Assembly: GCA_902514295.1 (NCBI GenBank)
Contig: CABXQE010000004.1
Location: 1 to 64,000 of the forward strand
DNA length: 64,000 nt
Origin: an uncultured SAR86 cluster bacterium
Lineage (GTDB): Bacteria > Pseudomonadota > Gammaproteobacteria > Magnimaribacterales > Magnimaribacteraceae
Direction: 5' to 3'
Below the pieces are notes generated by a model. It was given only the letters and a program-made list of their open reading frames with translations. It did not search any database and was not told the DNA's origin. The translations under genes and the position numbers were made by a program. Of this stretch, positions 44,263-49,243 are shown piece by piece; position 1 is the first letter of the stretch; each line of letters opens with the position of its first letter.

Positions 44263-45156
44263 TTATCTTTTTTTTGTAGATTCTTTTACTAAGTTTTCTG
44301 GACTTGCCAGAGCAGAATATTTGTCTTGAGTGTTACTAAATATCTTTTCGGGAGTTACGGATTCTAATTTCCCATCTTGTTTTTCGGGGTCAGTGTAGAA
44401 ACCCATTACATACCCTCCTTTAGAATAACCTATAAGAGACCTTAATTCAGGAGATAACTCTTTGGCTATCTCTGGAGGGCAGGATAAATATTGATTTTCT
44501 TGTTGCCTGATCCAACCTGGAGCGTAATGTATAAAGATTCCTGATCTTATATCATCAGAAGTGTTATCTCCGCCACCATGCAGTACTGATCCTGTGTAAA
44601 TTAACACTGATCCTTTCTTCATCTCTGCATAAGCTATTTCATCTTCTAGAGGCTGTCTTTTGGCATCCCATTTATGAGATCCAGGAACAAGCTGAGTAGC
44701 TCCATTCTCATAAGTAAAGTCGCTTGCAGCCCAAACAACAGCAAATTGAGTCTCAATCTTTCTAGAAATATAGCCTCCCCAAAGCCCCCTATCTCTATGA
44801 AGGATTTGTTTGGTTTCACCAGGACCAATACTGATTAAAGAAGTGAAATGCAATTGATAATTATCGCAATGAGGTTTCAAGAATTCAGAAGCAAGTGAAT
44901 TTATTTTTTCATGCATGGCAAGATCACGGCATCCATGAGATCTGGCTATTAATGCACCAACTCTACTTGTTTTAAATCCTGTAAAATCATCGGCCCCTTT
45001 AAGGTTTCCTTTTATAAAGGGATCTAACTCTTCTAATATTTTATCTATTTTAGTTCCAGGAATTACATCATCAACAATAACTGCTGCATCTTCTTCAATG
45101 ATTCTAAGAGCCTCTTCATCCGAAGTATCAATAGATATATGTTTAACTTCCGCCAT
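44263..45156 (-). CDS. Phytanoyl-CoA dioxygenase (PhyH) family protein 2
   Basis: 297-residue Fe(II)/2-oxoglutarate oxygenase with HRD ligands in KQILHRDRGLWGG, the distal His in VLHGGGDNTSDD and the Arg of DIRSGIFIHYAPGW. It is a clear relative of the protein at 47677: both share the segment QENQYL and a following EL..LIGY pattern, suggesting gene duplication. It lies 23 bases beyond MATE on the same strand. The substrate is unknown. Confidence 0.92.
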   Translation of the reverse strand: MAEVKHISIDTSDEEALRIIEEDAAVIVDDVIPGTKIDKILEELDPFIKGNLKGADDFTGFKTSRVGALIARSHGCRDLAMHEKINSLASEFLKPHCDNYQLHFTSLISIGPGETKQILHRDRGLWGGYISRKIETQFAVVWAASDFTYENGATQLVPGSHKWDAKRQPLEDEIAYAEMKKGSVLIYTGSVLHGGGDNTSDDIRSGIFIHYAPGWIRQQENQYLSCPPEIAKELSPELRSLIGYSKGGYVMGFYTDPEKQDGKLESVTPEKIFSNTQDKYSALASPENLVKESTKKR

Positions 45157-46586: not shown

Positions 46587-47645
46587 ATGAAAAGAACATT
46601 AATAGAAAGATTGGATCAAGGCCCTGTAATTTGTGCTGAAGGTTTCTTGTTCGAAGTTGAAAAAAGAGGTTATTTGGCATCTGGAGAATTTGTCCCAATG
46701 GTTTCTTTAGAACATCCTGAAGCTCTTGAAAATTTACATAAAGATTTTCAACATGCTGGTTCAGATATTGTTGAGGCTTTTACTTACAACGGTCACAGAG
46801 AAAAAATGCGTGTAATCGGGAAAGAGGAACTCCTAGAGCCACTTAATAGAGCAGCCCTTAAGATAGCAAAGAAAGTTGCTGACAATCCTGTGGATGGAGG
46901 AGAGCCAAATTTAATGGCAGGAAATATTTCGAATTCAAATATATGGAAAGAGGGTGACAATGAATCAAAAATAGAAGTCCATAGAATGTTTAGTGAGATG
47001 GTTGAGTGGGCGGTCGACGAAGGAGCAGACATATTAATTGGCGAAACCTTTTATTACGCTGAAGAAGCATATACAGCTTTAGATATTATTCAAAAGGCTG
47101 GATTACCATCGGTAATCACAATTGCTCCTATGGGTGTAAATTCAATGATGGATGGAGTTTCTGTTTTAGATACGATGAAAGAATTAGAACAAAGAGGAGC
47201 TGATGTGGTCGGCATGAATTGTTTTAGAGGTCCTGAAACCATGATGCCTTATCTTAGAGAAGCAAGAAAAATTCTTAAATGTCATATGGCTGCTCTTCCA
47301 ATACCGTATAGGACTTCAGAAGAAAACCCAACCTTCTTTAATTTACCTGACGATAGTTCTTGTACTTGTCCCGCTCCACATGGAAGAACTTTTCCTACAG
47401 CTTTAGACCCGCTTTATTGTAATAGATATGAGATCCAAGAATTTGGAAAAGAGGCTTCTAAATTAGGGATAAACTATCTAGGAGTTTGTTGTGGTGCAAC
47501 ACCTATGCATATAAGAGAAGTTGCTGAAGCAGCAGGTTTAACAGTCCCAGCAAGTAAATATAGAGAAAAAATGGAAAATCATTTTATGTACGGTTCTAAT
47601 GAAAGAACGGCAGAACATATGCAGGATTTTGGAGACAAAGCTTAG
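46587..47645 (+). CDS. Betaine-homocysteine S-methyltransferase-like enzyme
   Basis: 352-residue zinc methyltransferase of the homocysteine S-methyltransferase family, converting homocysteine to methionine with a methyl donor such as betaine. EGFLFEVEKRGYL near the start, DIVEAFTYNGHREKM and ADILIGETFYYAEEAYTALD follow the BHMT barrel. Zinc ligands: NCFRGPE and the paired cysteines in GVCCGATPMHIREVAEAAG. The SAM-II leader suggests methionine-repressed expression, in parallel with metX. A gamma-type cobalamin-independent MetE/MetH role is not implied. The gene ends 11 bases before the displaced tRNA-Phe fragment. Confidence 0.9.
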   Translation: MKRTLIERLDQGPVICAEGFLFEVEKRGYLASGEFVPMVSLEHPEALENLHKDFQHAGSDIVEAFTYNGHREKMRVIGKEELLEPLNRAALKIAKKVADNPVDGGEPNLMAGNISNSNIWKEGDNESKIEVHRMFSEMVEWAVDEGADILIGETFYYAEEAYTALDIIQKAGLPSVITIAPMGVNSMMDGVSVLDTMKELEQRGADVVGMNCFRGPETMMPYLREARKILKCHMAALPIPYRTSEENPTFFNLPDDSSCTCPAPHGRTFPTALDPLYCNRYEIQEFGKEASKLGINYLGVCCGATPMHIREVAEAAGLTVPASKYREKMENHFMYGSNERTAEHMQDFGDKA

Positions 47646-47656
47646 AAGGGGAAACT

Positions 47657-47682
47657 AACCACCGACACAAGGATTTTCAGTC
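47657..47682 (-). repeat. Displaced tRNA-Phe 3' segment (26-bp direct repeat)
   Basis: The 26 bases AACCACCGACACAAGGATTT...CAGTC are identical to 48870-48895 inside tRNA-Phe (anticodon loop through T-loop). The next bases (T-arm side) match the tRNA partially (about 9 of 13), as if decayed. The stop codon of the PhyH gene at 47677 lies inside the repeat. It brackets a 1.2-kb segment with the intact tRNA, as after integration at a tRNA gene. Confidence 0.85.
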
Positions 47683-48480
47683 ATCTTGCAGAAAGAAGTG
47701 TTTTGGATTTATCGAGAATCCTAATCCGCCATAAGCTCTATAGCCAATTAGTTCAGCAAGATCCTTAGGAAGTTTTTTTACGTCTTCTGAAGGTACGTCT
47801 AGATATTGATTTTCTTCCTGACGCAACCAACCTAGAGAGTAACTAAGAATGACTCCATATCTCCAGTCATTAGAAACATTAGCTCCTGCACCGTGCAGAG
47901 TTCCTCCCAACCAATACAAGACTGACCCTGCAGGCATTTCTGCCGGTAGTATCTCTTCATCTTTCGGCTTTCTATCTTTCTCCCATGTGTGACTACCTGG
48001 TACAAGCAAGGTAGCTCCGTTGTCGGCACGAAAGTCAGTTATTGCCCACATACTTGCAACAATTAGATTCGGTCGCGGAACATCAAAAAATGGGAATGGG
48101 TCTTCCTCTCTATGCAATATTTGTTTTCGGGAACCAGGACCAACTTCCACAGCGGCACTTACATGGAGTTGATAACCGCAGTTTGAGTTAGGTAATAAAA
48201 AATGGTCACAAATGTCCGTAGACATTTTATCGATTGCTAGTTTTCCAGTAGTTTCAGATAAAGCGACCAAGGCGCTCATTCGTTTAGTATTTCCTGGATA
48301 GAAGGCCTCAGGATCATCAACTTCTGCAGGGGACGTTTCCATCGCTGGTTCTAGCTCTGTTTTAACTTTCTCTCTCGTATCTTCGGATATGGCATTTTGT
48401 ACAACTAAACAACCGGATTCTGAAAGACTTTCTATTTTATCCTGAGTTTTATCAGTTATATCTAAGATAGGTATTTCCAT
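47677..48480 (-). CDS. Phytanoyl-CoA dioxygenase (PhyH) family protein 3 with HXE motif
   Basis: 267-residue Fe(II)/2-oxoglutarate oxygenase-like protein. The first ligand motif is HRE (KQILHREEDPFPF) where the relatives at 42115 and 44263 have HQD and HRD; the distal His (TLHGAGANVSND) and Arg (WRYGVILSYSLGW) are kept. Asp-to-Glu exchange keeps a carboxylate ligand but could change activity. Relative to protein 2 it shares LVPGSH, QEENQYL and ELIGY segments. It fills most of the small segment between tRNA-Phe and its displaced 3' copy, and its stop codon TGA is formed by the repeat. Confidence 0.9.
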   Translation of the reverse strand: MEIPILDITDKTQDKIESLSESGCLVVQNAISEDTREKVKTELEPAMETSPAEVDDPEAFYPGNTKRMSALVALSETTGKLAIDKMSTDICDHFLLPNSNCGYQLHVSAAVEVGPGSRKQILHREEDPFPFFDVPRPNLIVASMWAITDFRADNGATLLVPGSHTWEKDRKPKDEEILPAEMPAGSVLYWLGGTLHGAGANVSNDWRYGVILSYSLGWLRQEENQYLDVPSEDVKKLPKDLAELIGYRAYGGLGFSINPKHFFLQDD

Positions 48481-48567
48481 GTTTACTATTTGAAGTTTTG
48501 ACTTAACGTCAGGCTACAGAGTAATCTGTAAGTTAGCAATATTAAAAGATTAACTTGGAGGAGATTT

Positions 48568-48828
48568 ATGAGATATATTATTTTAATATCAGTTCTAATC
48601 ACTTCTTTATCAGTTTCATCAGCTGCTAGATGGGAAGATAAAGGATGTGGAAGAATAGAAGCAGGAGTAGGGCAACTTATAGCTGCCAGTGAAAGCATGA
48701 GAGGTCTTTCTGAGGGCGCGGGTAAAGATGGTGACTCAGGAGCAGAGAAAGAATTAAGGGAAATGCAGCTTTTCTTTCTTGAGTCCGCCGGGCATTGGTC
48801 AACCATATACTCTTCATTTTGTAAGTAA
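48568..48828 (+). CDS. Small secreted protein (86 residues)
   Basis: I do not recognise this protein. A strong GGAGGAG site precedes the ATG. A signal peptide (MRYIILISVLITSLSVSSAA) is followed by a short mature part of about 66 residues with two cysteines (near residues 27 and 85) that might form a disulfide, rich in Gly, Ser and Glu. It lies between the divergent PhyH gene and tRNA-Phe, inside the tRNA-bracketed segment. The good ribosome site and export signal support a real gene. Confidence 0.75.
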   Translation: MRYIILISVLITSLSVSSAARWEDKGCGRIEAGVGQLIAASESMRGLSEGAGKDGDSGAEKELREMQLFFLESAGHWSTIYSSFCK

Positions 48829-48848
48829 AAAACAAAAGGGCTGTTAAG

Positions 48849-48924
48849 TGGTGCCCAGAGGTGGAATCGAACCACCGACACAAGGATTTTCAGTCCTTTG
48901 CTCTACCGACTGAGCTATCTGGGC
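48849..48924 (-). tRNA. tRNA-Phe (GAA)
   Basis: 76 bases including encoded CCA. Acceptor stem GCCCAGA/TCTGGGC, D-arm, anticodon arm GGACTGAAAATCC with anticodon GAA, and T-arm GGTTCGATTCC fold as normal. Its 3' half is duplicated at 47657-47682. The small secreted-protein gene (stop near 48828) is convergent from the other side. Confidence 0.98.
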
Positions 48925-48973: not shown

Positions 48974-49243
48974 TTATTCAGGCGGTCTATAGCCACTAGG
49001 TTTTGCATAGTCCTCACCTGATAAAAATAATTCCATTTGTTTATTCAACCAATTCCTCGATTCTCTATCTGCTAGATTTAGTTGTCCTTCGTTTATTAAC
49101 ATCTTTTGATGTTCTAACCATTCATCCCATGCCTTTTGAGAGACGTTATTAAATAGGTCTTCTCCTTTAGGGCCGGGAAAAGGAGGTTTTTTCATTCCGT
49201 CTAATTCTTCTTTATACTTTCTACAGGTTACTTTTTTAGGCAT
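48974..49243 (-). CDS. yggX: Probable Fe(2+)-trafficking protein YggX
   Basis: 89-residue cytosolic protein that protects iron-sulfur clusters against oxidants. The single conserved Cys7 lies in VTCRKYKEEL, followed by MKKPPFPGPKGEDLFNNVSQKAWDEWL and LNLADRESRNWLNKQMELFLSGEDYAKPSGYRPP, which is the family pattern. It abuts mutY (start 49243/49244) on the same strand, the usual mutY-yggX pairing. Confidence 0.95.
   Translation of the reverse strand: MPKKVTCRKYKEELDGMKKPPFPGPKGEDLFNNVSQKAWDEWLEHQKMLINEGQLNLADRESRNWLNKQMELFLSGEDYAKPSGYRPPE

Follow-up and report, generated by a model that had tools for sequence, protein, structure and literature searches.

Among the systems closest to the locus described here are the cis-mobilizable elements (CIMEs; PMC5704250), for instance the ssrA islands of Dehalococcoides that lack an integration module (PMC3146451). 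These elements are bounded by attL and attR sites derived from the end of an RNA gene and are devoid of integrase and transfer genes; in Dehalococcoides they form tandem arrays beside integrase-bearing islands that use the same target. Islands of the Islander collection of tRNA and tmRNA genes (PMC4383910) possess a regenerated tRNA gene and a displaced 3' fragment. Their sizes peak at 13.6 and 40 kb, and anticodon-centred sites (subsite A) are among the commonest subsites of tRNA islands. In the Methylophilaceae, which are streamlined aquatic bacteria, additive flexible genomic islands reflect serial insertions at one gene, tRNA-Lys(CTT), that are marked by recurring 20-bp tRNA ends (PMC10872708). 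The same paper describes tycheposons, cargo elements of marine bacteria, as units of 4-200 kb with a tRNA border and a tyrosine recombinase. Integron gene cassettes are single-gene units at one chromosomal site that depend for their movement on an enzyme encoded elsewhere.

SAR86 bacteria are among the most abundant uncultured bacteria of the ocean and have streamlined genomes. We analyzed a window of 64,000 bp from contig 4 of a SAR86 genome (G000; about 1.23 Mb, 79% complete), in which an intact tRNA-Phe gene and a displaced copy of its 3' half bracket PhyH1, a gene for a predicted dioxygenase. About 200 SAR86 genomes served as the comparison set (199 for the PhyH1 search). As a caveat, the assemblies derive from single cells or metagenomes, and contigs break at the repeat in G002, G007, G021 and G050.

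As in CIMEs, both att sites of the PhyH1 cassette appear to be retained, in the form of tRNA-Phe and the displaced fragment, and integration and transfer genes are absent, since only PhyH1 and a resident small gene lie between the repeats. CIME-type accretion with an element that has the same att site would be compatible with the tandem fragments of G160 and the serial insertions of G004. Unlike CIMEs, the cassette consists of one gene on about 0.9 kb at a tyrosine-type anticodon-loop site, and the same compact unit occurs in different families and not just as a product of local decay. With the Islander set it has in common an intact tRNA gene, a displaced 3' fragment in the same orientation and the anticodon-loop crossover of subsite A, but a matching integrase, which other islands at this site do encode, is missing from the interval in the window, and the cassette lies far below both size peaks (PMC4383910). 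The Methylophilaceae islands differ from it in their target, since tRNA-Phe is used here, and by the anticodon-loop crossover and a single-gene unit that can be traced across families. Of the features by which PMC10872708 describes tycheposons, the PhyH1 cassette has the tRNA border, but neither the recombinase nor the size. The likeness to integron cassettes, with movement apparently by a non-encoded enzyme, is an analogy only: a tRNA gene is targeted, a tRNA half serves for recombination, and in place of attI/attC insertion every PhyH1 cassette seen sits at tRNA-Phe.

A displaced 3' half of tRNA-Phe in the window

The intact tRNA-Phe(GAA) gene was located by ARAGORN at positions 48849-48924 on the minus strand; its 3' half marks the attL side of the insertion. 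Its anticodon loop (t32-38) corresponds to positions 48887-48893, and its 76 nt are identical in most relatives. On the attR side, a displaced fragment (t30-t68) occupies positions 47644-47682 of the minus strand as a direct repeat in the same orientation, with 35 of 39 positions identical to the tRNA and a start-to-start distance of 1213 bp. The initial annotation had proposed, from this stretch alone, an exact recurrence of the anticodon-to-T-loop part about 1.2 kb away, followed by a decayed T-arm. Both statements hold: the exact core of the fragment comprises 26 bp (47657-47682; t30-t55), while past t55, in comparison with the intact junction of genome G005, there are substitutions in the T-arm and no acceptor strand. 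A chance repeat is ruled out, since 26 bp is the longest word that the 3 kb downstream of tRNA-Phe have in common with the tRNA, and in 300 first-order shuffles the longest common word did not exceed 13 bp (mean 8.4).

The displaced fragment is directly abutted by the stop codon of a homocysteine S-methyltransferase-type gene (BHMT; PF02574), which occupies positions 46587-47645 of the plus strand. The conserved flank 5' of tRNA-Phe is yggX (48974-49243, minus strand; PF04362), which is found beside tRNA-Phe in most of the family. No integrase open reading frame was found in the window interval between tRNA-Phe and the fragment, as the initial annotation had stated. The only PF00589 matches in the 79% complete G000 genome are two proteins of 303 and 314 amino acids that look like the chromosomal XerC and XerD recombinases.

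PhyH1 terminates within the tRNA sequence

PhyH1 (47677-48480, minus strand) encodes a predicted Fe(II)/2-oxoglutarate dioxygenase of 267 amino acids (PF05721, E=3e-27); its score of 96.6 bits, compared to a curated cut-off of 22, places it in the PhyH family. The closest solved structures are those of fungal dioxygenases, e.g., TlxJ and PrhA. In all five cassette copies and in a homologue from G090, the metal-binding motif aligns as HRE and not as HxD, the family norm. HRD is present in PhyH2, a diverged resident paralogue (44263-45156, minus strand; 37% amino acid identity) outside the insertion.

The final Asp codon of PhyH1 and its stop (GAC-TGA) lie inside tRNA sequence. The TGA at positions 47677-47679 equals t33-t35 of the displaced fragment, so that one repeat does supply the stop codon of the oxygenase gene, as first noted. 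The G090 homologue (69% amino acid identity) is non-mobile and is found away from any tRNA-Phe gene; it has a longer C-terminus and its own stop codon, and its neighbours, named from their N-termini, are probably a polA-like gene and a gene for an engB/yihA-like GTP-binding protein. The cassette-borne PhyH1 looks as though cutting and joining had taken place at its 3' end. Upstream of PhyH1, sequence comparison delineated a leader (48481-48540, minus strand; right boundary approximate). Its homologue in G018, G012 and G160 is a leader of 81 bp that separates PhyH1 from tRNA-Phe; the tRNA-proximal ~35 bp are missing in G000. The dN/dS values of the window PhyH1 against the other copies (0.16-0.19) indicate purifying selection on the cassette. 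As a candidate for phage or plasmid cargo, PhyH1 was set aside after searches of viral sequences, with no relative in IMG/VR and a single distant hit among phage genomes.

Empty and occupied sites within the genus

An empty site is present in G005 (single cell AG-343-L05), where only a few bases separate the BHMT stop codon (BHMT-TAGAAG) from the intact tRNA-Phe, and a similar adjacency is found in a SAR86B genome (L047). G002 carries the same PhyH1 and fragment as the window, and its contig stops inside the small gene. G004 differs in its cargo, which consists of two GFO/IDH/MocA oxidoreductase genes and lies behind a fragment that is exact over 45 nt. Beyond the fragment of this newer island lies a remnant of the PhyH1 leader, and two successive insertions must therefore have occurred there. 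Between the leader remnant and the tRNA-Phe fragment, BHMT codons 89-109 recur in inverted orientation as a copy of 63 bp (G004:C23; L036:7119-7181), which resembles, by analogy, filler DNA at a repair junction. A different insert of 0.6 kb is present in G001; the decayed fragment there is a weak match only, and we make no claim for it.

This comparison of the interval among relatives, which the initial annotation had called for, yielded an empty site as well as different cargo at the same site elsewhere. Together with the recurrence of the cassette in further genera and beyond the family, these data strongly support insertion at the 3' end of the tRNA gene.

Divergence of the PhyH1 cassette and of its neighbors

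In G018 and G012 (genus g2) and in G160 (family f2), PhyH1 starts 81 bp from the 3' end of tRNA-Phe, and a remnant of its C-terminal part is found at a contig end in G007 (genus g3). PhyH1 of G018, G012 and G160 is 93-94% identical to the window copy at the amino acid level, with an identity at fourfold sites of 0.87-0.90 (about 0.89). The corresponding comparisons of core genes (yggX and mutY for g2 and g3, PhyH2 for G160) gave only 53-65% amino acid identity and 0.26-0.42 at fourfold sites. Judged from these identities, PhyH1 is far less diverged than the neighboring core genes, and the cassette of about 0.9 kb has therefore moved horizontally between SAR86 genera and families. Since the genes around tRNA-Phe differ in family f2, the common location cannot be attributed to recombination via core genes on either side.

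The second gene between the repeats (48568-48828, plus strand), in the 3' flank of tRNA-Phe, encodes a protein of 86 amino acids with an N-terminal signal-like stretch and without a match in Pfam, PHROG or NCBIfam. Its orthologues are 91% (G003) and 63-64% (G012 and G018) identical, and its fourfold-site identity between genera g1 and g2 (0.38-0.39) is like that of yggX. The initial annotation had treated PhyH1 and this gene as one island that was inserted as a unit, and both do lie between the repeats in G000 and, up to the contig end, in G002. We regard joint insertion as improbable, however, because the small gene diverges like core genes and, in G003, adjoins tRNA-Phe without PhyH1, without the repeat and without BHMT; in G012 and G018 it is located just outside the bracketed cassette. 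Only PhyH1 can be kept as inserted cargo, and the small gene is, by these comparisons, an older resident of the locus. Since in G000 it sits between PhyH1 and tRNA-Phe, one more rearrangement after the insertion is needed.

A tRNA-Phe hotspot across SAR86

Displaced 3' halves are present downstream of tRNA-Phe in 11 of the family's 35 genomes and in 9 of the 26 genomes of g18, a genus from another family, one of them with two halves in tandem; G160 has tandem fragments. Exact identity to the tRNA starts at t26-t32 in 20 of the 23 copies examined. The three exceptions start at t35, t36 and t45 and have mismatches just 5' of these points. None of the 23 fragments is identical to the tRNA 5' of t26, most are exact through t76, and the sequence to the left of the fragment boundary varies among elements. 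The boundaries thus coincide with the anticodon loop (t32-38) or immediately precede it, and the crossover therefore falls there. Such a pattern would be expected if the far copy were the chromosomal 3' half and the sequence to its left came from the element.

The intervals between tRNA and fragment measure about 0.3-4.7 kb in islands without an integrase and reach 8.5-9.5 kb in those with one. The island in the window, described at first as far smaller than usual, lies far below the Islander size peaks, but its size is unexceptional within the tRNA-Phe hotspot. In G022 (L182:608-949, tRNA on the minus strand), only about 0.2 kb separate tRNA-Phe from the displaced copy, and the flanks beyond the two are alike over more than 40 bp; the interval represents either an almost empty element or a tandem duplication. 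A search of IMG/VR with a 34-mer of tRNA-Phe retrieved one contig with several tRNA genes, which is uninformative.

Two further observations concern other tRNA genes. A survey of G000, made with a T-arm pattern only, revealed a second mini-island (G000:C11:18462-20407; L272:6463-8408) in which tRNA-Lys(CTT) has a displaced copy 1.85 kb downstream. The repeat (73 nt, 92%) extends past the tRNA end, and the interval holds a MORN-repeat gene and small open reading frames, with no integrase. In G002:C85 (L236), an integrase-like frame of 410 amino acids adjoins tRNA-Arg(TCT), pointing to another tRNA target in the genus.

Integrases at the same site

None of the PhyH1 copies among the 199 SAR86 genomes is accompanied by an integrase. 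The tRNA-Phe site also hosts a family of tyrosine integrases of 489-494 amino acids, encoded there in G021, G056 and G133, which represent three families. The G021 protein (489 amino acids) possesses a PF00589 domain and an arm-binding domain. Its relative in G056 (58% identical) is located in a 9.5-kb island of a single-contig genome, and that in G133 (45%) in an 8.5-kb island and contains one in-frame TAA. No member of this family was detected in the 79% complete G000 assembly at E<=1e-30. The integrase could not be equated with a known phage or plasmid enzyme, since all hits were below 60% identity and none was from IMG/VR. The 9.5-kb island of G056 (G056:C1; L259) also encodes many small proteins of membrane or secreted type and a protein of 465 amino acids for which no Pfam match was convincing.

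Several integrase-less islands have direct repeats resembling arm sites at both ends, e.g., TAGTGTTCAT in G159 and G192; repeated arm-type sites common to both ends of the PhyH1 cassette were not found. Some of the integrase-less tRNA-Phe islands carry C5 methyltransferases and other genes. C5-cytosine methyltransferases are encoded in those of G166 and G192 (L265 and L269), the former also with an endonuclease VII-like gene, and these two are possible defence islands. In the simplest reading, small islands would be mobilised in trans by integrases of the 489-494-residue family.

Origin of the PhyH1 cassette

The interval is probably a non-autonomous, att-flanked cassette of a single gene, similar to a CIME, that was inserted site-specifically into a tRNA-Phe hotspot used throughout SAR86. 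For tyrosine recombinases, the seven-base anticodon loop is the usual overlap region. A very small element without an integrase would insert into the SAR86 tRNA-Phe gene by a crossover in these seven bases; the replacement 3' half that it brings would keep tRNA-Phe intact, and the original half would be displaced to the BHMT side and decay there. The cargo is PhyH1 alone, its 3' end fused to the tRNA from which it takes its last codon and stop. An integrase of the 489-494-amino-acid type would move the cassette in trans, or in cis within a tandem array, and in G000 a later rearrangement would have brought the older small-protein gene to its place on the tRNA side of PhyH1. The repeat, the empty site, the recurrence, the boundaries and the horizontal transfer are shown by the sequences. 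We infer the mobilising integrase because PhyH1 copies lack one while this integrase family occupies the same site in three families, and we do likewise for the route between cells and the order of the last rearrangement. Against this explanation count the location of the small gene on the tRNA side of PhyH1, left unexplained by one simple insertion, the lack of an integrase in or near any PhyH1 copy, and the lack of common arm-type repeats at the cassette ends.

A duplication of the tRNA 3' half in tandem, with no mobile element and PhyH1 as an ordinary resident, would likewise yield a displaced fragment, and the flanks in G022 that are alike beyond the tRNA would suit it; we consider it highly improbable in view of the empty site and the other cargo in congeners, and because PhyH1 occupies this site in distant genera, the other genes of which have diverged much further. 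Homologous recombination, in which tRNA-Phe sequence at both ends lets imported DNA recombine with the resident tRNA without any integrase today, draws on a tRNA-Phe that is nearly invariant across SAR86, on at least 45 bases common to fragment and tRNA and on a cassette without a nearby integrase. Yet even islands that differ in their cargo have crossover boundaries concentrated at the anticodon loop, integrases exist at the same site, and arm-like repeats flank both ends of some integrase-less islands (G159 and G192), so that we hold this route to be unlikely.

Somewhat less doubtful is an origin by decay, in which deletion in place stripped an integrase island of several kb at tRNA-Phe of its integrase and most of its cargo and left PhyH1 with its att halves, now immobile. 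Larger integrase-bearing islands do exist at the site (G056 and G133), the window fragment has a decayed T-arm, the cassette is truncated at its right end, and decay to CIMEs is a textbook route (PMC5704250). PhyH1 is, however, equally compact and has the same two ends in G018, G012 and G160, up to two families apart, at a fourfold-site identity of ~0.9. Repeated independent deletion to identical ends is unlikely, and the small form itself must therefore have travelled, although the copy in the window may now be immobile. To about the same limited degree we entertain a wider extension of the cassette model, in which the SAR86 tRNA-Phe gene would act as an integron-like docking platform. A tyrosine integrase, resident or visiting, would work in trans to capture single genes or small sets, each with just a tRNA half for attachment, and would shuffle them throughout the order. 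Recombination of its 3' end with the anticodon loop could then turn a chromosomal gene such as PhyH1 into a cassette.

Implications for SAR86

The architecture of the locus fits cis-mobilizable elements and additive tRNA islands (PMC5704250, PMC3146451, PMC10872708). Unusual features are its one-gene scale of about 0.9 kb, the absence of an integrase from all copies and the compact form itself, which can be shown to have moved across families. The att scar can be used to find cassettes without integrases, which island finders that require an integrase or several kb would miss. A hotspot with turnover of small cargo at one tRNA gene, including single genes and restriction-modification genes, would help to explain how SAR86 bacteria gain functions, and such gain would need no visible prophages or conjugative elements.
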